From Bacteroidota bacterium (GTDB taxonomy: Bacteria > Bacteroidota > Ignavibacteria > UBA10030 > UBA6906): 51,502 nt of DNA. A program made the translations under genes and the position numbers. The stretch is from positions 1-51,502 of the forward strand of contig JAGDMK010000002.1 in NCBI GenBank assembly GCA_017860635.1, given 5' to 3'. Below, piece by piece: positions 21,197-49,539 of the stretch. The notes under the pieces were generated by a model. The model saw only the letters and a program-made list of their open reading frames with translations, searched no databases and was not told the DNA's origin. Numbering within the stretch: the stretch's first letter is position 1; every line of letters starts with the position of its first letter.

Positions 21197-21427
21197 CTCA
21201 CCAACGGTGAATACCCGCGCCGGCATTCCGGCGCGAACAGTATCTCGTGAACGATCCTTGATGAGTCAAGAAGCTCACCAACGGTGAATACCCGCGCCGG
21301 CATTCCAGCGCGAACAGTATCTCGTGAACGATCCTTGATGAGTCAAGAAGCTCACCAACGGTGAATACCCGCGCCGGCATTCCGGCGCGAAGAGCATCTC
21401 ATGAGCAGTCCTCGAAGAGTCAAGATG
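21197..21427 (+). repeat. Three tandem 77-bp repeats, each with a perfect hairpin
   Basis: Copies start at 21197, 21274 and 21351. Copies 1 and 2 differ at one base; copy 3 matches for its first 40 bases and then diverges. Each carries the inverted repeat CGCGCCGG-CATT-CCGGCGCG (21216-21235 in copy 1), an 8-bp stem with a 4-base loop; in copy 2 one stem base is changed. The array fills the gap between the T9SS-tailed gene and the beta-mannosidase gene. It could act as a REP-like mRNA-stabilising or terminating element. There are no spacers, so it is not CRISPR. Confidence 0.85.
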
Positions 21428-21471
21428 CTTCCCGGAGGATGTATACTCAACACACCATGCGAAAGAAAACG

Positions 21472-23928
21472 ATGTCCAAGCAGACAATTGACCTGAGCGG
21501 CTCATGGCAATTTCGATGTGAAGACACGTACAATGCCCTTCCCCGCAGCCATCAGTCGTTGGCACGGTGGATGAAAGCGGCCGTTCCCGGAACGGTCCAT
21601 ACCGACCTTATGGCCGCCGGCAAGATCGCCGATCCGTTCTACCGCACCAATGAAAACGACATTCAGTGGATAGACAGAGTGCGGTGGATCTACAGACGGA
21701 CCTTCGTTGTTTCCGATGCCGTTTTGCAGGAGCAGGCGATCGAGCTGGTGGCCGAAGGTCTCGACACCTTTGCGGCCATCCGGATCAACGATAGCCAGGT
21801 CGGATCTGCGTTCAACATGTTCATCGGGCATCGCTTCGACGTAAAATCCTCTCTCCATCCTGGCATCAATACGATTGAAATCGCCTTTGACTCTCCGACC
21901 GTGAGAGCGAAGGCGATTGAACAGGAACATGGAAGACTCCGGGTTGCGCTGGAGTCGTATCGGGCCTACGTACGCAAAGCCCAGTATTCGTTCGGGTGGG
22001 ACTGGGGGCCGAAACTCACCACATCCGGCATATGGCGCCCCATCCGCATTGAAGCGTACTCCGGCGGACGGCTCAAGGATCCAGTCGTCCGTGTGGTCTC
22101 GGCAGATGCAGATGCGGCAGAGATAGTCGTTGCCGTGTCGGTAACCAACGAAGGAAACGCACAGCACGAGCTGGACATCAGTATTACGGGAGGAGACAGG
22201 GAGGTAAAGTCATCAGCCGTCGTAGCGGGAGCGAACGCCGTGCTGAAGTGCTCCGTCTCCCAACCCAGACTCTGGTGGCCCAACGGATACGGGGAGCAGC
22301 ACCTGTACACTGCGGAACTTGCCCTCCGGCTCGGCACAGAGGTGGTGGACACGGCAAGTGTGCGTTTTGCCATTCGTACCGTGCGTCTCGTTCAGGAACC
22401 GGACGAAGAAGGGCGTTCGTTCATCATAGAGGTGAACGGGGTGCCGGTGTTCTGCAAGGGTGCCGACTGGATTCCATCGGACAGTTTCATTCCGAGGATC
22501 AAGGACGCTACATACACCCGTCTTCTCACAATGGCCCGCGACGCGTCCATGAACATGATCCGTGTGTGGGGAGGAGGGATTTATGAGCAGGAGATCTTCT
22601 ATGACCTCTGCGACCGCCTCGGTCTCATGGTGTGGCAGGATTTCATGTTCGCGTGCGGCGAGTACCCCGATCATCCTGCATTCCTGGAGGCAGTGCGCGA
22701 GGAAGCGGAATCGGTTGTGCGCCGTCTGCGCAACCATCCGTGCATCGTGCTCTGGTGTGGCAACAACGAATGTGAGTGGCTCTTCTGTACCGAAAATCCC
22801 GCCAAGACCCCTGATGACATGAGGGGCGCACCGATCTTCCGCGATGTCCTTGCCAGAGTTGTGCGCGATCAGGACGGCACGCGTCCCTACTGGCGCAGCA
22901 CGCCGTTCGGAGAGGGCTTCCCGAATGCACAGGATAACGGAAACCACCATCAGTGGGAAGTGTGGAGCGCATGGAAGGACTTCCTCCACTACCGCGAGAA
23001 CCACGCACGGTTTGTTTCCGAGTTCGGTTTTCAGGGTCCGCCCGATCCCCGCACACTCGAGCGTGTGACGCTGCCGGAGGACCGGTCACTTCATTCGGCA
23101 GTGGTGCAGCACCATAACAAACAGGTGGAAGGAATGGAGAGGCTCTTCCGGTTCCAGGCTGCGCATTACCCTGTGGCGGCGGACTGGGCCGGGTTCTTCC
23201 ACACGGGTCAACTGGTGCAGGCCGACGCGTTGAAGTGCGCCGTTGAGCACTGGCGCCGGAGGAAATTCAGAACAGGCGGGGCGCTGTTCTGGCAGCTCAA
23301 CGACTGCTGGCCTGTGATGAGCTGGTCCGTGATCGATGCCGATCTCCGCCCGAAGGCGTCGTACTATGCCGCACGCCGTTTCTTTGCACCTGTGCTCGTC
23401 TCCCTCGCGCAGGCCGGACCGGATATTCGGGTGTGGGGGACGAACGACTTCCTCGTGGATGTGCCGTCAAGGGTGTCGCTGTCTCTCCGTTCATTCAACG
23501 GAGACGTGCTCTGGCGCAAGAACATGCGCGTCGTGGTACCGCCCAATGCATCCGTCATCCTGTACACGGTGCCCGGGATTGTGATGCGCAAGGTGGATCC
23601 CGCAACCATGTACCTTCATGCAGTCCTTGCCTATGCAGGTGGAGGGGTGACGGAGAACAGGCATTACTTCCTTGAGCCCAAGCATCTTAAGCTGCCGCAT
23701 GCCCGCGTTGCCATCAGCGTGCGGAAGTCAGGTCCCGGTGTTTACCGGGCACGCGTGCGTTCCACGAAGTTTGCGTTTGGCGTCGCTCTGACTGCGGCAG
23801 TCGATGCAGACATCCATGAGAATTGGTTTGACCTGGATGTGGGGAGCGCGCGGGATGTCATAATCTCGAGCGAACTGCCGCTTGCTCAACTGCGTCGGAC
23901 GATTGCCGTCCGTGCACTCAATTCATGA
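21472..23928 (+). CDS. Beta-mannosidase, GH2 family, cytoplasmic
   Basis: 818 residues from ATG 21472; ATG 21439 and 21457 are in frame, but a TATACT hexamer at 21442 argues for a later start. There is no signal peptide, so it acts in the cytoplasm. Domains follow the GH2 order: sugar-binding jelly roll ('DLSGSWQFR', 'AVPGTVHTDLMAAGKI'), Ig-like domains, then a TIM barrel. The general acid/base is E433 in WCGNNECEW and the nucleophile E517 in FVSEFGFQ, the beta-mannosidase pattern; 'GVRFRDADWIPSDSF'-like sequence appears here as 'FCKGADWIPSDSFIPR'. It releases mannose from the non-reducing end of beta-mannosides (EC 3.2.1.25 type). Two GH130 phosphorylase genes follow directly, giving hydrolytic and phosphorolytic routes for the same substrates. 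Confidence 0.92.
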   Translation: MSKQTIDLSGSWQFRCEDTYNALPRSHQSLARWMKAAVPGTVHTDLMAAGKIADPFYRTNENDIQWIDRVRWIYRRTFVVSDAVLQEQAIELVAEGLDTFAAIRINDSQVGSAFNMFIGHRFDVKSSLHPGINTIEIAFDSPTVRAKAIEQEHGRLRVALESYRAYVRKAQYSFGWDWGPKLTTSGIWRPIRIEAYSGGRLKDPVVRVVSADADAAEIVVAVSVTNEGNAQHELDISITGGDREVKSSAVVAGANAVLKCSVSQPRLWWPNGYGEQHLYTAELALRLGTEVVDTASVRFAIRTVRLVQEPDEEGRSFIIEVNGVPVFCKGADWIPSDSFIPRIKDATYTRLLTMARDASMNMIRVWGGGIYEQEIFYDLCDRLGLMVWQDFMFACGEYPDHPAFLEAVREEAESVVRRLRNHPCIVLWCGNNECEWLFCTENPAKTPDDMRGAPIFRDVLARVVRDQDGTRPYWRSTPFGEGFPNAQDNGNHHQWEVWSAWKDFLHYRENHARFVSEFGFQGPPDPRTLERVTLPEDRSLHSAVVQHHNKQVEGMERLFRFQAAHYPVAADWAGFFHTGQLVQADALKCAVEHWRRRKFRTGGALFWQLNDCWPVMSWSVIDADLRPKASYYAARRFFAPVLVSLAQAGPDIRVWGTNDFLVDVPSRVSLSLRSFNGDVLWRKNMRVVVPPNASVILYTVPGIVMRKVDPATMYLHAVLAYAGGGVTENRHYFLEPKHLKLPHARVAISVRKSGPGVYRARVRSTKFAFGVALTAAVDADIHENWFDLDVGSARDVIISSELPLAQLRRTIAVRALNS

Positions 23929-32078: not shown

Positions 32079-32131
32079 AAAAGAGAGATGCACCATATCT
32101 ATGTCAAACGGATAAAATGAGGTCATCGTGT

Positions 32132-34045
32132 ATGAACCGTCCTCGAACTAATCTCATTCCGTTCCTGGTCATTCTCTTCGTTCCGATGCTGCTTCTCCCT
32201 GCGCCAGGCGTCTCCGGTGATCACAGAAAAACCCGGAATGTGCTTCTGGACAGCATAGCCTGGATTCCCCAGAATCTTCCGATCCCCGGCGTCGTTGCGG
32301 GGAATGCCGTGTGGTTCGACTACAACAACGATGGCCGTCTCGACATCCTCATGGCAGGGATGAGTGAACTCGGCCCTGTTTCCGGAATCTACCGGAACGA
32401 TGGCCAGGGTTTTTCGAATCTCCAGGCAGGCATTTGCCCGCTGGTCTCAGAGCACGGGCTTTCCTGGGCAGATATTGACAATGATGGGGATGTGGACTTC
32501 GCCATTGAAGGGACAACCGACACACTCAATACACAGCCGTTATCGAAGGTGTATACGAACAACGGCGGGGACTTCGTTGATATGAATGCCCGCATTATGG
32601 GCCTCAACGGAGGCTCCGTGACCTGGGTCGATTCTGACAATGATGGCCACCTTGACCTCCTCATCTCGGGTTCACCGGATCGGGGGAACTCGTTCTACAC
32701 AAAACTGTATCGTGTCATTAACGGCCAGTTCTACGAAGTCCCTTCGAACCTCCCGGGTGTATGGGGAAGTTCCATTGCGTGGGCTGACTACGACCACGAC
32801 GGCTACATGGATGTCTTCATCACCGGGTACGGATATGGAGTCCAGACACGCCTGTATCACAACGCAATGTCCCGCGGTGTCATCGGTTTCGATGAGGTGT
32901 ACAGTCCTCTCCGTGGAGGAGGGACATTCCGCGCGGTAAACTCGGGAGGTGTGATCTGGTTTGATTTCGACAATGATGGCTTTGTCGATCTTCTTGTGAC
33001 CGGTTCAGGCAGTGGCGGCGTTCCTGTGGCTGCGTTGTACCGCAACAATCAGGATGGATCATTTACAGAAATCCAGACAACGTTGAAGCCAGTCCACGTC
33101 AGCGCTGCTGCTGCCGGCGATTATGACAACGATGGGTACATGGATATCGCCATCTCCGGCGGGGAGCATTTTTACACCGGTACGAATATGACCACGAAGA
33201 TCTACCACAACAATGGGGATAGCACGTTTACCGATACGGGGGCAAAACTCGTCGGAACCTGGTTCGGGTCACTCGACTGGGGGGATTATGACGGGGACGG
33301 GCGGCTGGATCTCCTTGTCACCGGCGCTACTGCTGAGAGAACGCACCCAACATACGGTACTGATCTCAAACCGGTGACGATGCTGTACAAGAATGTTGCC
33401 GTCGTGGCGGGGAACTCCTCTCCCGCCACTCCGCAGGGACTTGCCACAAAGATCAATGCGCAACAGGCAACGCTCAGTTGGAAGGCCTCGACGGATGACG
33501 AGACCGATCAGAAGGCAATCACCTACAACGTCATGGTCGGAACGGCGCCTGGGAAGTTCGACGTCGTATCACCCCTTTCCGACCCGCAATCCGGTTACCG
33601 GAGAATGCCCAAATCTGGAAGCCAGGGAGCACGTACCGAGGCAATACTGAGGACTCTCTCGCCAGGGACGTACTATTGGAGAGTGCAGGCTGTTGACAAC
33701 CAGTTTGCCGGTTCTCCATTTTCCGAAGAGGGGACGTTCACTGTTACATCCACGTCGGCGGATCCGGATCCATTGGCCCCCCGAGCCTACGCGTTGCGAC
33801 AGAACTACCCCAATCCGTTCAATCCGGCAACAACCATCGCGTATGAATTGCCGCACGCATCACACGTGAGCGTGACCGTCTACGATATGCTTGGACAGCA
33901 GGTGTCAGTGGTTGTGGACGGCACGATGGAGGCAGGAGTGCACGAGGTCAGGTTTGATGCTTCCGGCCTCTCGAGCGGATTGTACCACTACAGGTTGAGT
34001 GCGGGGAGCTTCGTCCAGACCAGAAGCATGGTCTTGGTCCGGTAG
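32132..34045 (+). CDS. Secreted FG-GAP/VCBS-repeat protein with FN3 and T9SS domains
   Basis: 637 residues from ATG 32132, preferred over ATG 32117 because GAGG sits nine bases before it. After the signal peptide ('FLVILFVPMLLLPAPGVSG') come seven FG-GAP/VCBS-type repeats recognisable by D-x-[DN]-x-DG-x-x-D loops (for example DYNNDGRLDIL, DIDNDGDVDFAI, DYDGDGRLDLLV). These loops bind calcium and build an integrin-like propeller. A fibronectin-III-like domain at about residues 435-540 and a T9SS tail (YPNPFNPATTIAYELP ... RSMVLVR) complete it. Predicted to sit on the cell surface, with a role in adhesion or glycan/protein binding. A terminator lies about 110 bp downstream; monocistronic by appearance. 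Confidence 0.85.
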   Translation: MNRPRTNLIPFLVILFVPMLLLPAPGVSGDHRKTRNVLLDSIAWIPQNLPIPGVVAGNAVWFDYNNDGRLDILMAGMSELGPVSGIYRNDGQGFSNLQAGICPLVSEHGLSWADIDNDGDVDFAIEGTTDTLNTQPLSKVYTNNGGDFVDMNARIMGLNGGSVTWVDSDNDGHLDLLISGSPDRGNSFYTKLYRVINGQFYEVPSNLPGVWGSSIAWADYDHDGYMDVFITGYGYGVQTRLYHNAMSRGVIGFDEVYSPLRGGGTFRAVNSGGVIWFDFDNDGFVDLLVTGSGSGGVPVAALYRNNQDGSFTEIQTTLKPVHVSAAAAGDYDNDGYMDIAISGGEHFYTGTNMTTKIYHNNGDSTFTDTGAKLVGTWFGSLDWGDYDGDGRLDLLVTGATAERTHPTYGTDLKPVTMLYKNVAVVAGNSSPATPQGLATKINAQQATLSWKASTDDETDQKAITYNVMVGTAPGKFDVVSPLSDPQSGYRRMPKSGSQGARTEAILRTLSPGTYYWRVQAVDNQFAGSPFSEEGTFTVTSTSADPDPLAPRAYALRQNYPNPFNPATTIAYELPHASHVSVTVYDMLGQQVSVVVDGTMEAGVHEVRFDASGLSSGLYHYRLSAGSFVQTRSMVLVR

Positions 34046-34902: not shown

Positions 34903-36459
34903 TCACTTCAGCGACAGCACGACCACCGAACCTGCCGGTATCTCCAGACGCACTCTTGACCCATCCACCTTCGCTCCTTTAAACTCCTGTGGCTTCACTT
35001 TCTCCGGGTCATCAAATGTATTGTGATCCTGGATCTTTGCGGATGTGAGGATCCGTCCCTTCACCGATGTAAAACGTGCTCCCCGGACGTCCACTTCGAT
35101 TTCACGGGGTGCATGGATGTCGATGTTCACAAGCGAGATGTGCACCGCGTCTGAACGATCGCGGGACGCCGAAACGGACAATGACGGAAGGGAGGTGCCA
35201 TCAAAGGTATACTCCGGACTGTTCACGCTCACCGGCAAAAGCACGGCGTCGTGGTGCGGGGTGTACATCTCCATGACGTGATACGTTGGCGTGGTGAGCA
35301 TCCGCGCCTCATCCGTCAGCACAACTGCCTGCAGGACGTTGACCGTCTGTGCCAGGTTGGCCATACGGACACGGTCGCAGCGGTTGTTGAAGATATTGAG
35401 TGTCAGGCCGGCGAGCACGGCATCGCGCATGGTGTTCTGCTGGAACAGGAAGCCGGGGTTTGTGCCGGGTTCAACGTCATACCATCCTCCCCACTCGTCC
35501 ACGACGAGCGCTATCTTCTTCTTGGGATCATACCGGTCCATGATTGTCGCATGTCCCTTGACGAGCTCCTCCATATGCCAGGCACGCGTCATGGTGTCGA
35601 AGTATTCTGCCTCCGAGAATCTGGTGGCAGATCCCTTCTTGCCCCAGTTTGCCGAATAGTGATGGAGCGCCACTCCTTCCAGCAAACCGTGAGGGATGTC
35701 GCGCATGAGCACTTCGGTCCAGTGATAGTCGCCACCCCCTGCGCCCGAGGCGATCCGGAATATCGGGCTCTTGCCCCACGTGGATGAGACAAACGTAGAA
35801 TAGAGGCGATAGATGTTCGCATAATATTCTGCTGTCATGTTCCCGCCGCATCCCCACGTCTCATTGCCGATTCCCCAGTAACGCACCTGCCACGGTTCCA
35901 TTCTGCCGTTCTGCTTTCGCTGGTTGGCCATCGGCCCCGTGCCGCCAAAGTTGACGTATTGCACCCAATCGGTCAGTTCCTGCACGGTCCCACTTCCCAC
36001 ATTGCCCGAGATGTACGGTTCTGCGCCGAGCTGTTCACATAAGTCCAGGAACTCGTGCGTTCCGAAGCTGTTGTCCTCTGTTACGCCGCCCCACCAGGTA
36101 TTGACGATCGCCGGGCGTTTCTCCCGCGGGCCGATGCCGTCTTTCCAGTGATACGTATCGGCAAAGCATCCGCCCGGCCACCGGAGGTTCGGGATGTGGA
36201 GCCGCTTCAATGCCTGAACGACATCGTTCCGGATGCCGCGTGTATGGGGGACCTGGCTGTTTGCCTCCCCCACGAAGAATCCGCCGTAGATACAGTGTCC
36301 GAGATGCTCGGAGAAGTGTCCGTAGATATGGCGGCTGATCGTATCTTTGCCGAGGTCGGCGTTGACCACGATTCTCGTCTGCGCCGAAGCGAGTGAAAAT
36401 GTGCCGAGGGCGCACAAGACAGCTACAAGCCGCCGGGCGACGTTCATGGATGGTTGCAT
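34903..36459 (-). CDS. Secreted alpha-L-arabinofuranosidase, GH51 family
   Basis: 518 residues on the minus strand with a signal peptide ending 'TFSLASAQ'. The GH51 pattern is clear: '[20 protein letters not shown]' near the start, '[20 protein letters not shown]', acid/base E200 in WGIGNETWG and nucleophile E322 in [10 protein letters not shown], then a C-terminal beta-sandwich. It releases arabinose from arabinan, arabinoxylan or arabinosylated glycoproteins. AGGAG lies about 5 bases before ATG. Most characterised GH51 enzymes are cytoplasmic, so a clear signal peptide is somewhat unusual. The neighbour on the other side is divergent (202-bp gap, possible shared control region); it faces the small hypothetical gene tail to tail. 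Confidence 0.9.
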
Positions 36460-45051: not shown

Positions 45052-46261
45052 ATGCCCCATGAACTGATCAGAGAGAAGATCCAGCAGGCTACGGCGCTCC
45101 TTCCGGAGTTTGGAATCGATTGCTGGATCACGTTCGTTCGTGAAACGAGCCTGAACGGCGATCCTGTCCTTCCGTACCTCGTGGCATCAGATCTCACATG
45201 GCAGAGTGCGTTGATCTTCGGAGGCGATGATCTTCGGAGGCGATGGCAGCCGGACGGCCGTCGTGGGCAAATACGACCGTCAGATGGTGGTCGACACCGG
45301 CGCCTATGACCGGGTGCTGGATTATGTCGAAGGAATGCGTGCTCCATTGCTGGCAGAACTGGCCAGGCTTGCGCCTCGCCGGATCGCACTCAACTATTCG
45401 ATGGATTCCGAAATCTGTGATGGCATAACGCACGGCATGTATCTCACCATGATGGGATACCTGAGCGAAGCGGGGCTTGCCGACCGTGTTGTTTCTGCGG
45501 AAGGGCTGCTGTCCGCCCTTCGCCAGCGAAAGACCCCCGCTGAACTTGAACGGTTGCGCGAAGCCATTCGCCACACGGAAGAAATCTATGACGCCGCAGA
45601 ACAGTGTATCCGGCCGGGGATGAGTGAAGCCGATGTTGCCGCGTTCATGCGAACAGAGGTGGAGCGCCGGCACCTGGGGTTTGCCTGGGACCCGCACACA
45701 TGTCCGTCTGTCTTTTCCGGTCCGGACACCGCCGGAGCGCACTACGGCCCGACGGGCCGCACCATCGCACATGGCCATGTTCTGAACATGGATTTTGGTG
45801 TGCGTGTTGAGGGATATGTCTCAGACATTCAACGCACGTACTACATCCTGCGCCCGGGAGAGACGCGTGCGCCGGTGGAGGTCGAGCAGGGATTCGCAAC
45901 GATCCGTGATGCCATCGAGAGCGCGCGTGCTGCCATCCGGCCGGGTGTTGAAGGCATCGGAGTGGACTCAGCAGCCCGGACTGCAATCACCAGTCGGGGC
46001 TACGAGGAGTTTCCCCATGCGGTGGGTCATCAGGTCGGGAGGTTTGCGCACGACGGGACCGCGCTGCTGGCACCGGCATGGGAAAAATACGGCCGGAAAC
46101 CCTTTGTGCCGCTTGAAGAAGGAATGGTCTTTACAATTGAGCCGCGCCTGACGGTTGAATCGTACGGCATTGTGACAGTGGAAGAGATGATTGTGGTGAC
46201 ACATGACGGCGCAGAGTACCTTTCCCGACCCCAGACAGCGTTACGGCTCATCCGTGCATAA
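45052..46261 (+). pseudogene. M24 (Xaa-Pro dipeptidase/aminopeptidase) gene, frame broken by 16-bp duplication
   Basis: Two overlapping frames (45052-45309 and 45227-46261) encode the N- and C-terminal parts of one protein. Deleting one copy of the perfect 16-bp tandem duplication at 45213-45244 restores a 397-codon frame reading '[18 protein letters not shown]' across the junction. The N-terminal part is a creatinase-N-type domain. The C-terminal part is the pita-bread metalloprotease domain with all five metal ligands: D and D in 'NMDFGVRVEGYVSDIQR', H in 'HAVGHQVG', E in 'FTIEPRL', E in 'VTVEEMIV'. Such enzymes cleave X-Pro or X-Hyp bonds. The catalytic part starts at an ATG (45227) created at the duplication junction, so it might still be made. 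It is upstream of hypD-like genes, fitting Pro/Hyp peptide degradation. Confidence 0.85.
45213..45244 (+). repeat. Perfect 2 x 16-bp tandem duplication causing frameshift
   Basis: GATCTTCGGAGGCGAT occurs twice in direct contact (45213-45228, 45229-45244). Sixteen is not a multiple of three, so the second copy breaks the peptidase frame. Loss of one copy by slippage would restore it. Confidence 0.97.
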
Positions 46262-47177
46262 CCATACGCCGTCCGTGACAGGAACAATCTTCGATGTCAT
46301 GCGGTTCGCGGTCAATGACGGTCCGGGGATACGAACGACGGTCTTTCTGAAGGGCTGCCTTCTTTCATGCTGGTGGTGCCACAATCCGGAAGGCCTTCAC
46401 CGCGGCATCGAAGTGGCATACAGGGTCGACCGGTGCATTCTCTGTGGCGAATGTGTTGATGCGTGCCCTCACCGCGCGCTTGCCCTGGAGGAAACGCGGG
46501 TGGTGCGTGACGAAGCCCAGTGCGTGCTCTGCGGCTCGTGTGCGGATGCATGTTACACGGAAGCCCAGGAGCGGATCGGACGGGACATCAGCGTGCGGGA
46601 TCTCCTCCAGGAAATTCTGAAGGATCGCGTTTTCTATGATGAGTCAGGAGGGGGAGTGACGTTCTCCGGAGGCGAGCCCCTTCTCCAGTTCGACTTCCTG
46701 CTTGCAGCGCTTTTGGCATGCAAGGAGCAGGAGGTTCACACAGCGGTGGAGACTTCCGGTCTTACATCGACGGAACATCTGGATCGGATACGCGCTGCCA
46801 CGGACCTCTTCCTGTTTGATGTGAAACTCGTGGACGAAGAGCGGCACAAACGATTCACGGGGGTGTCCAATACGCGCATCCTGGAGAACCTCAGGTTCCT
46901 GGCATCCGCCGGTGCGGCTGTGGTTGTGCGCCTCCCGCTCATTCCGGGTGTGAACGATGACGATGCAAACATCGACGCGCTGGCCGAGCTGCTCGCCGGC
47001 CTGGAGACGATTCGGGAGGTGCATCTCCTTCCCTACCATGCCGGTGCGTCGGCCAAGTACCGGAGCCTGGGTATGCGCGCCCGGATGGCAGATGCCCGTC
47101 CGCTGCCACGCGAGCGGGTTGAGGCGATCGCACGGTCGTTGAGTGCGCGTGGCTACACTGTACAGATTGGAGGGTGA
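46254..47177 (+). CDS. Glycyl-radical enzyme activase (radical SAM)
   Basis: 307 residues if started at GTG 46254, overlapping the peptidase stop by 8 bases; ATG 46203 (59-base overlap) and GTG 46275 are alternatives. It reads 'FDVMRFAVNDGPGIRTTVFLKGC', the hallmark of PFL-activase-like enzymes, with the SAM cluster C35-x3-C39-x2-C42. An inserted two-cluster ferredoxin domain has CILCGECVDACP and CVLCGSCADACY, as in activases of non-PFL glycyl radical enzymes. 'FSGGEPLLQFDFL' follows. It abstracts the alpha-hydrogen of Gly760 in the enzyme encoded four bases downstream, installing the radical under anoxic conditions. The tight spacing makes the partner assignment secure. Confidence 0.9.
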   Translation: MHNHTPSVTGTIFDVMRFAVNDGPGIRTTVFLKGCLLSCWWCHNPEGLHRGIEVAYRVDRCILCGECVDACPHRALALEETRVVRDEAQCVLCGSCADACYTEAQERIGRDISVRDLLQEILKDRVFYDESGGGVTFSGGEPLLQFDFLLAALLACKEQEVHTAVETSGLTSTEHLDRIRAATDLFLFDVKLVDEERHKRFTGVSNTRILENLRFLASAGAAVVVRLPLIPGVNDDDANIDALAELLAGLETIREVHLLPYHAGASAKYRSLGMRARMADARPLPRERVEAIARSLSARGYTVQIGG

Positions 47178-47181
47178 CAGA

Positions 47182-49539
47182 ATGACGGAGCGGGTCCGGA
47201 AACTGCGCGAGGTAAGTTGCACCACGCAGCCCTATATCTCCGCCGAACGGGCGCTCCTCGTGACGGAGGCGTACCGCACAATGGGGTTCCATTCGGCGCC
47301 GGTCATGCGGGCACTGGTGTTCAAGTATGTGATGGAACACAAGACCGTCTGTATCAGTCCTGGCGAACTCATTGTCGGAGAGCGCGGACCTGCTCCGCGG
47401 GCAACGCCGACGTATCCGGAAATCTGCTGTCACTCGCTTGAGGACCTCACGATCCTGGACACGCGACCGAAGATCCCCTATGCCGTAAGCGATGAAGTGC
47501 GGAAACACTACACCGAGACAATCATCCCATACTGGAAGGGCAGGACAATCCGTGAAAAGATCTTTGCGGAGATGACGCCGTCATGGCATGATGCCTATGC
47601 GGCGGGGATCTTCACGGAATTCATGGAGCAGCGCGCTCCCGGCCACACAGTGCTGGACGACAAGATCTATCACCGCGGCATGATGGATTTCATCCGGGAG
47701 ATCGATCTTCAGCTGGAGCATCTCGACTACTATAAGGATTCCCTGGCGTACAGCAAGCAGGAGGAATTGCGGGGCATGCGTATAGCTGCGGAGGCCATGA
47801 TACGCTTCGCTGAGCGGCATGCGCTGGCACTCGACCGGGAAGCAAGTCAATGCACAAATCCGCAGCGGCACGGCGAGCTGGCACACCTTGCCGCCATCTG
47901 CCGGAGAGTCCCCGCGCACGCTCCACAGACCTTCCATGAGGCGCTTCAGGCATACTGGTTCATGCATCTCGGCGTGGTGACAGAACTGAATCCGTGGGAC
48001 TCTTTCAATCCCGGGAGGCTGGATCAGCACCTTCTTCCTTTCTATCAGGCCGAAACAGCAAAGGGCACGCTGACAGACGAGCATGCCCGGGAGCTGCTGG
48101 AATGCCTCTGGGTGAAATTTAACAATCAGCCGGCGCCCCCCAAAGTGGGTGTGACGGCCGCCGAAAGCGCAACGTATACCGACTTCGCGAACATCAATTC
48201 GGGCGGCATGCGTCCGGACGGCTCCGACGGCGTAAACGCCGTAACCTACCTCGTGCTGGACGTGATCGACGACATGCGTCTCGTGCAGCCGAGTTCGAAT
48301 ATCCAGCTGAGCAGGAAGAATCCCGATGCATTCCTGAAACGCGCCCTCCGCATTGTCCGCAAAGGATGGGGCCAGCCTTCGATCTTCAATGCCGATGTCG
48401 TGGTCGAAGAAATGCTCAGGCAGGGGAAATCCATAGAAGATGCCCGGTGCGGCGGAACGAGCGGCTGCGTGGAAACGGGGGCATTCGGGAAAGAAAGCTA
48501 CATCCTCACCGGCTATCTCAATTTCCCGAAGATCTTCGAAGTGACATTGCACAACGGAGTCGACCCGCGCTCCGGCAAGTCTATCGGGCTGCGCACAGGC
48601 GACCCTCGATCGTTCCGCTCCTTCGGCGAACTCCTGCAGGCCTATCGTACACAGCTCCGGCATTTCGTCGACATCAAAATACGCGGAAACAATGTCATCG
48701 AGCGTATCTACGCACAGTATGTCCCGACACCGTTCCTCTCCATCCTCATCGACGACTGCATCCGGAACGGCAGAGACTACTCCGATGGCGGCGCGCGCTA
48801 CAACACAAACTACATCCAGGGCGTCGGCATCGGCACGCTGGCCGATTGCTTCTCCGCTGTCAGGACACACGTCTTTGAGACGCATGCGGTGGACATGGAT
48901 GAACTGATGCGCACGATGGAGCAGAATTTCGAGGGGAATGAGCGGCTGCATCAGCTGATGCTGAACCGGACTCCGCGGTACGGGAACGACGACGACCGGG
49001 CAGACGATCTGATGCGCGAAGGCTTCGAGATGTTCTACGAAGCCGTGAACGGCCGGCCGAACACAAAACAGGGCGTCTACCGCATTCAGATGCTCCCGAC
49101 GACGTGCCATGTCTATTTCGGGTCAGTCACGGGAGCAACCCCGGACGGACGTCTGAGCGGCGTGCCCGTTTCTGAAGGGATTTCACCGGTGCAGGGAGCG
49201 GATCGGACAGGGCCGACGGCCGTGCTGCGCTCGGCCGCGAAAATGGACCACGCGCGAACCGGCGGGACACTGCTCAACCAGAAATTCACGCCTGATCTCC
49301 TCGCGGGAGAGGAGGGCATCGAGGATCTGACACGGCTGGTGCGCTCCTATTTCACCATGGGCGGCCACCATATCCAGTTCAACGTCATCGATGCTGCAAC
49401 ACTGCGCGCCGCTCAGCAACATCCTGAACAGCACCGCGACCTGATCGTGAGGGTGGCGGGATACAGCGACTACTTCTGCGATCTGGGAAAGACGCTGCAG
49501 GACGAGATCATCGCGCGGACGGAACACCACTCGTGGTAA
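47182..49539 (+). CDS. hypD: Glycyl radical enzyme, probable trans-4-hydroxy-L-proline dehydratase
   Basis: 785 residues from ATG 47182 (GGAGGG seven bases upstream). The thiyl-radical Cys is C429 in GTSGCVETGAFGKES with base E431, and the glycyl radical is G760 in VRVAGYSDYF. The active-site residues I remember for Clostridioides difficile HypD (H160, S334, D339, F340, C434, E436, Y450, T645, G765) all fall here at exactly minus five: H155, S329, D334, F335, C429, E431, Y445, T640, G760. HypD dehydrates trans-4-hydroxy-L-proline to 1-pyrroline-5-carboxylate, which ProC reduces to proline; no proC lies in the window. Glycerol or choline enzymes carry GCVEP instead of GCVETG. The reference numbering is from memory, but the constant offset over 600 residues makes coincidence very unlikely. 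Confidence 0.85.
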   Translation: MTERVRKLREVSCTTQPYISAERALLVTEAYRTMGFHSAPVMRALVFKYVMEHKTVCISPGELIVGERGPAPRATPTYPEICCHSLEDLTILDTRPKIPYAVSDEVRKHYTETIIPYWKGRTIREKIFAEMTPSWHDAYAAGIFTEFMEQRAPGHTVLDDKIYHRGMMDFIREIDLQLEHLDYYKDSLAYSKQEELRGMRIAAEAMIRFAERHALALDREASQCTNPQRHGELAHLAAICRRVPAHAPQTFHEALQAYWFMHLGVVTELNPWDSFNPGRLDQHLLPFYQAETAKGTLTDEHARELLECLWVKFNNQPAPPKVGVTAAESATYTDFANINSGGMRPDGSDGVNAVTYLVLDVIDDMRLVQPSSNIQLSRKNPDAFLKRALRIVRKGWGQPSIFNADVVVEEMLRQGKSIEDARCGGTSGCVETGAFGKESYILTGYLNFPKIFEVTLHNGVDPRSGKSIGLRTGDPRSFRSFGELLQAYRTQLRHFVDIKIRGNNVIERIYAQYVPTPFLSILIDDCIRNGRDYSDGGARYNTNYIQGVGIGTLADCFSAVRTHVFETHAVDMDELMRTMEQNFEGNERLHQLMLNRTPRYGNDDDRADDLMREGFEMFYEAVNGRPNTKQGVYRIQMLPTTCHVYFGSVTGATPDGRLSGVPVSEGISPVQGADRTGPTAVLRSAAKMDHARTGGTLLNQKFTPDLLAGEEGIEDLTRLVRSYFTMGGHHIQFNVIDAATLRAAQQHPEQHRDLIVRVAGYSDYFCDLGKTLQDEIIARTEHHSW

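Follow-up and report, generated by a model that had tools for sequence, protein, structure and literature searches.

Does an Ignavibacteria-type bacterium carry the hydroxyproline-dehydrating enzyme HypD, and if so, what would it do with it? The question is raised by a glycyl radical enzyme (GRE) gene on contig JAGDMK010000002.1 of a Bacteroidota bacterium (GenBank assembly GCA_017860635.1; GTDB Ignavibacteria, UBA10030, UBA6906), of which positions 1 to 51,502 were analysed and are referred to as the window. The original prediction had assigned the gene to HypD instead of a generic PFL-like enzyme, and the sequence comparisons below lead us to the same assignment with high confidence. Hydroxyproline dehydration by the product of 47182-49539 would follow from this identity.

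HypD in the window

47182..49539, + strand: hypD, glycyl radical enzyme with thiyl Cys429 and radical Gly760; matches NF043068 and 6vxc, ten aligned residues

The open reading frame starts with ATG at 47182, a short way downstream of a GGAGGG, and ends with a stop codon at 49537-49539, giving the predicted length of 785 amino acids. The product scores 1314.9 bits against NF043068, the NCBIfam equivalog for HypD (cut-off 1100), and in the same profile search no other GRE equivalog came near its own cut-off. Its best match in the PDB is C. difficile (Clostridioides difficile) HypD (6vxc, 1073 bits), and the next enzyme, a glycerol dehydratase, reaches 548 bits. The structures 6vxc and 6vxe are reportedly associated with Levin 2017 and Backman 2020. 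Aligned with MAFFT, the window protein and the 6vxc chain are 57% identical across 780 residues; given this identity and these scores, the likeness is not due to chance. A crystal structure with bound substrate is available at this 57% identity. The nearest relatives of the window HypD are 85% and 78% identical to it.

The active site agrees residue by residue. The nine residues named in the original prediction are all present, and H155, S329, D334, F335, C429, E431, Y445, T640 and G760 align with H160, S334, D339, F340, C434, E436, Y450, T645 and G765 of 6vxc at a constant shift of -5. A tenth residue that had been left out, D273, corresponds to D278, and the spacing from Cys to Gly is 331 in both proteins, as predicted. 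The same ten positions were mutated and assayed in the C. difficile enzyme, where G765A, C434S, E436Q, H160Q, D278N, D339N, S334A and F340A abolished activity and Y450F and T645A strongly lowered it (PMC7077986). The window protein thus carries C429, G760, E431, H155, D273 and D334, whose counterparts have described roles (PMC7077986), as well as S329, F335, Y445 and T640 by alignment to 6vxc. All ten are invariant in 100/100 HypD sequences gathered.

Could the protein be another glycyl radical eliminase that resembles HypD, such as a glycerol or propanediol dehydratase, CutC, IslA, a PflD-type enzyme or HplG? The fold and the Cys, Gly, Glu and His residues are common to all of these, and the window protein reaches 641 bits with TIGR01774, the PFL2/glycerol dehydratase family. 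Five of the ten residues say little about specificity: H160, C434, E436 and G765 recur in most GRE dehydratases, and F340 in some of those compared. The HypD-specific positions in the alignment are D278, which is among the more telling, S334, D339, Y450 and T645. They differ in 5/5 non-HypD enzymes compared (glycerol dehydratase, propanediol dehydratase, PflD, 9rco and a second GRE of Desulfosporosinus). The His, Phe and Phe that mark glycerol and propanediol dehydratases at D278, S334 and Y450 are absent from the window protein, which has D, S and Y. Models and structures of the other enzymes moreover give about half the HypD score or less, including glycerol dehydratase and HplG (7vua, 434 bits), the latter being set apart from the window protein by score alone. 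We regard a different GRE as extremely improbable.

A single quick FastTree phylogeny of 100 HypD rows and an outgroup places the window protein inside the HypD clade, whose separation from the outgroup has a local support of 100. Alignment with C. difficile HypD and subfamily placement, two of the checks that had been proposed, both speak for the assignment, and every feature of HypD membership that can be read from sequence is present.

Activase and peptidase genes

The window enzyme resembles C. difficile HypD in identity, assayed residues, Cys-Gly spacing and a radical SAM activase in the gene cluster. Its setting differs: there is no adjoining proC, the neighbour is an M24 peptidase, and the host is of the Ignavibacteria type with three heme-copper oxidase matches. 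The genes next to hypD are:

46275..47177, + strand: hypD activase, radical SAM enzyme, GTG start, 300 amino acids; matches NF043069 and TIGR02494, adjoins HypD in most loci
45227..46261, + strand: catalytic domain of an M24 prolidase/aminopeptidase-P-like metallopeptidase; PF00557, 152.7 bits
45052..45309, + strand: N-terminal part of the M24 gene in another frame; by tblastn an intact homologue (locus L004) spans both frames
45213..45244, + strand: 16-bp tandem duplication, GATCTTCGGAGGCGAT x2 (45213-45228, 45229-45244), at the M24 frame break; seen in the sequence and by tblastn

The peptidase gene (stop at 46261), the activase gene (GTG at 46275 to 47177) and hypD (ATG at 47182) follow one another, with 4 nt between the activase stop codon and the hypD start. 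A promoter and terminator scan gave nothing above shuffled sequences. The activase has a CxxxCxxC motif and two ferredoxin-like [4Fe-4S] cysteine motifs. Its best model is NF043069 (T4HPD activase), with 364 bits under a cut-off of 425, and it reaches the cut-off of TIGR02494 with 353 bits. That the low NF043069 score marks an activase of a different GRE class was considered and dropped, since HypD-adjacent activases of relatives score under the cut-off too.

The M24 protein retains the metal-binding D, D, H, E, E set in the alignment but reaches no NCBIfam equivalog cut-off; it probably frees hydroxyproline (Hyp) and proline from peptides, judging by its family, its co-occurrence with HypD and its closeness to hydroxyproline genes. 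Its frame is broken by the 16-bp duplication, which may be biological or an assembly artefact, and the L004 homologue is intact. The break suggests that hypD itself might look intact and yet be silent, decaying together with its neighbour, and related genomes do contain a hypD remnant (G078) or split hypD genes (G497, G474). In the window, however, hypD is full length with all catalytic residues and stays close to its nearest relatives in sequence, and the duplication need not be real. A silent gene is therefore improbable.

In the tree, the closest companions of the window HypD are those of L003 and L004 (100%); Ignavibacteriota and KSB1 sequences join next (98%; L008, L053 and L006). Members of this clade are 65-85% identical and usually have an adjoining activase, but their neighbours vary: the window and L004 share the order M24, activase, HypD, whereas L053 lacks an adjacent activase.

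Association of peptidase and HypD in the class

The window-type M24 peptidase (at least 427 bits; next homologues at most 394 bits) occurs in 14/294 genomes of the class, and 10 of these 14 also encode HypD, which is found in 41/294 overall (Fisher p 6e-7, a value that ignores kinship). Seven class genomes have the two genes side by side or a short distance apart. Among 37 class-level HypD loci, tallied by hand and in some cases ending at contig edges, an M24-type peptidase is nearby in 17 and a gene of proline or hydroxyproline oxidation in 11.

Family f6 shows the most extended arrangement. Its operon begins with activase, HypD and aminopeptidase P, and various members add a POT oligopeptide symporter, a window-type M24 peptidase, a proline-racemase-family protein, proline dehydrogenase, a DapA-family protein, a class V aminotransferase and pyrroline-5-carboxylate (P5C) dehydrogenase (TIGR01236, 773-804 bits, cut-off 613.6). 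One genome (G394) has activase, HypD, aminopeptidase P, POT symporter, M24, proline dehydrogenase, DapA-family protein, class V aminotransferase and P5C dehydrogenase in a single gene run.

A probable oxidative route for hydroxyproline

The window genome encodes P5C dehydrogenase and ProC, both above cut-off, and a proline dehydrogenase. The glycine/proline reductase family PF09338 has no match in this genome, which is 88% complete. We favour the view that HypD in this lineage belongs to a module for the oxidative utilisation of hydroxyproline and proline peptides. M24 peptidases, joined in some relatives by the peptide:H+ symporter, would supply Hyp and proline. The upstream radical SAM enzyme would abstract a hydrogen from Gly760, and HypD would then convert Hyp to P5C. 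Proline dehydrogenase would convert proline to P5C as well, and P5C dehydrogenase would oxidise P5C to glutamate. The link of these last enzymes and of ProC to hypD in the window genome is drawn by analogy with relatives. Host catabolism of hydroxyproline is likely given these genes, and we infer that the host could grow on it.

Alternatively, ProC may, as it does in clostridia, reduce the P5C made by HypD to proline that feeds protein synthesis or a Stickland-type fermentation. This matches the role described for C. difficile HypD (PMC7077986; PMC12899673), and the window genome does have a proC over the cut-off. The clostridial reductive pathway was sought near hypD and not found, as proC lies elsewhere and PF09338 has no match. 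With the ProC of the window genome as probe, proC is away from hypD in the window and in all loci examined, and HypD is linked to proline dehydrogenase and P5C dehydrogenase in class relatives. We consider the reductive alternative unlikely, if by no means negligible.

Several points count against this reading of hypD and its module. The absence of a reductase is weak evidence in a genome that is 88% complete, ProC may return P5C to proline for assimilation, and P5C dehydrogenase, proline dehydrogenase and ProC are on contigs other than that of hypD. An M24-type peptidase is near HypD in only about half of the class loci, and the M24 gene of the window is frameshifted. The activase also falls short of its NCBIfam cut-off, although this is equally true of most HypD-adjacent relatives, that of Alkaliphilus among them.

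The window genome has P5C dehydrogenase, proline dehydrogenase, ProC and three heme-copper oxidase matches, and no PF09338 match was found; the better-supported route thus leads from HypD by way of P5C dehydrogenase to glutamate. A peptidase beside hypD and the lack of a Stickland partner gene suggest that collagen-type Hyp is oxidised to glutamate, not reduced as in C. difficile. Collagen and the glycoproteins of plant cell walls are rich in hydroxyproline. The peptidase-linked and probably oxidative setting is new here. If correct, oxidase-bearing non-Stickland bacteria open an oxidative Hyp route with a GRE and link it to Hyp-releasing peptidases, which would also give a functional lead, cleavage of Hyp peptides, for an uncharacterised M24 subfamily.

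A possible exchange with the epimerase route

The epimerase/D-hydroxyproline dehydrogenase pathway draws on the same substrate source but leads through D-hydroxyproline to alpha-ketoglutarate and has no GRE. In a sister genus in which no HypD was found (G055, G252; loci L169, L170), one cluster brings together the window-type M24 peptidase, a 4-hydroxyproline epimerase (591 bits, cut-off 376) and a D-amino-acid dehydrogenase. At L053 and L153 the order is DapA family, an aldehyde dehydrogenase of the alpha-ketoglutaric-semialdehyde type (below cut-off), 4-hydroxyproline epimerase (467 bits, cut-off 376), D-amino-acid dehydrogenase, HypD and M24.

Within one family, genus g2 carries the M24, dehydrogenase and epimerase genes and no HypD, and genus g174 has HypD together with these genes, the epimerase being truncated in 2/3 genomes. 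The window's genus has HypD and no epimerase was found in it; neither the window genome nor its two closest relatives gave a match to the epimerase family. Tentatively, HypD may thus serve in Ignavibacteria-type bacteria as an O2-independent entry to the oxidative Hyp pathway and, in one family, be replacing the epimerase/D-hydroxyproline dehydrogenase route; the order of events is tentative as well. This apparent exchange, also new here, would mean that one and the same nutrient is passing from the epimerase route to an O2-independent enzyme.

Gene remnants occur on both sides. In two genomes of one genus with HypD (G571, G523), the epimerase is left as residues 1-132 and 271-333 of 333, the truncation differing between the two (L151:12578-12766, L152:5304-5699). 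G078 retains the last 53 residues of a hypD, 75% identical, just upstream of a window-type M24 gene (L167:6285-6443), a case of hypD loss. The split hypD genes of G497 and G474 (L165, L166) lie in two or three frames through decay or sequencing errors.

Host and distribution of HypD

The host had been described as Ignavibacteria-like, T9SS-bearing and polysaccharide-degrading, and the genome bears this out. Its GTDB family includes the NCBI entry 'Ignavibacteriae bacterium fen_1259' (L053, identical to L153 of G585 in the same family); a 16S model search of the window genome gave no match, and the placement accordingly draws on named relatives and kinship codes. The window encodes an FG-GAP repeat protein with a T9SS type A sorting domain (32117-34045; 45.4 bits, cut-off 23), an alpha-L-arabinofuranosidase (34903-36459) and a GH2-family enzyme (21361-23928). 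Plant hydroxyproline-rich glycoproteins bear arabinose, and with these two hydrolases a plant source of Hyp is therefore conceivable.

The occurrence of HypD outside Firmicutes, which had been put forward as novel, is not. A review reports HypD in Firmicutes and Bacteroides (PMC11574389). A scan of named genomes, in which binning of metagenome-assembled genomes could misplace some genes, found HypD-like genes with 62-85% identity in Chloroflexota, Bacillota, Acidobacteriota, Planctomycetota, Ignavibacteriae, KSB1, Calditrichales, Gemmatimonadota, Aminicenantes, Atribacteria, Caldisericota and one Nanoarchaeota assembly. In our samples, 24/396 genomes of the phylum exceed the family cut-off, and about 41/294 of the class have HypD, partial genes included. 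In taxonomic terms the finding therefore extends what was known and is no discovery. None of the papers searched links Ignavibacteria with HypD; the one paper with both words merely lists the phylum. Further HypDs of the class group with Aminicenantes sequences in the FastTree phylogeny; two or more HypD lineages are therefore present in the class.

The HypD of the Nanoarchaeota-labelled assembly (L081) also clusters with Aminicenantes sequences, through a binning error or transfer. Desulfosporosinus sp. FKB encodes a further GRE (35%), accompanied by an activase of its own, next to HypD and a proline-racemase-family gene (L007:1260-3650). The window genome (sample label G000) also holds a partial second PFL2-type GRE by a contig edge (G000:C306:106-1788; L138), which is 28% identical and scores 263 bits with TIGR01774, a value below the cut-off.
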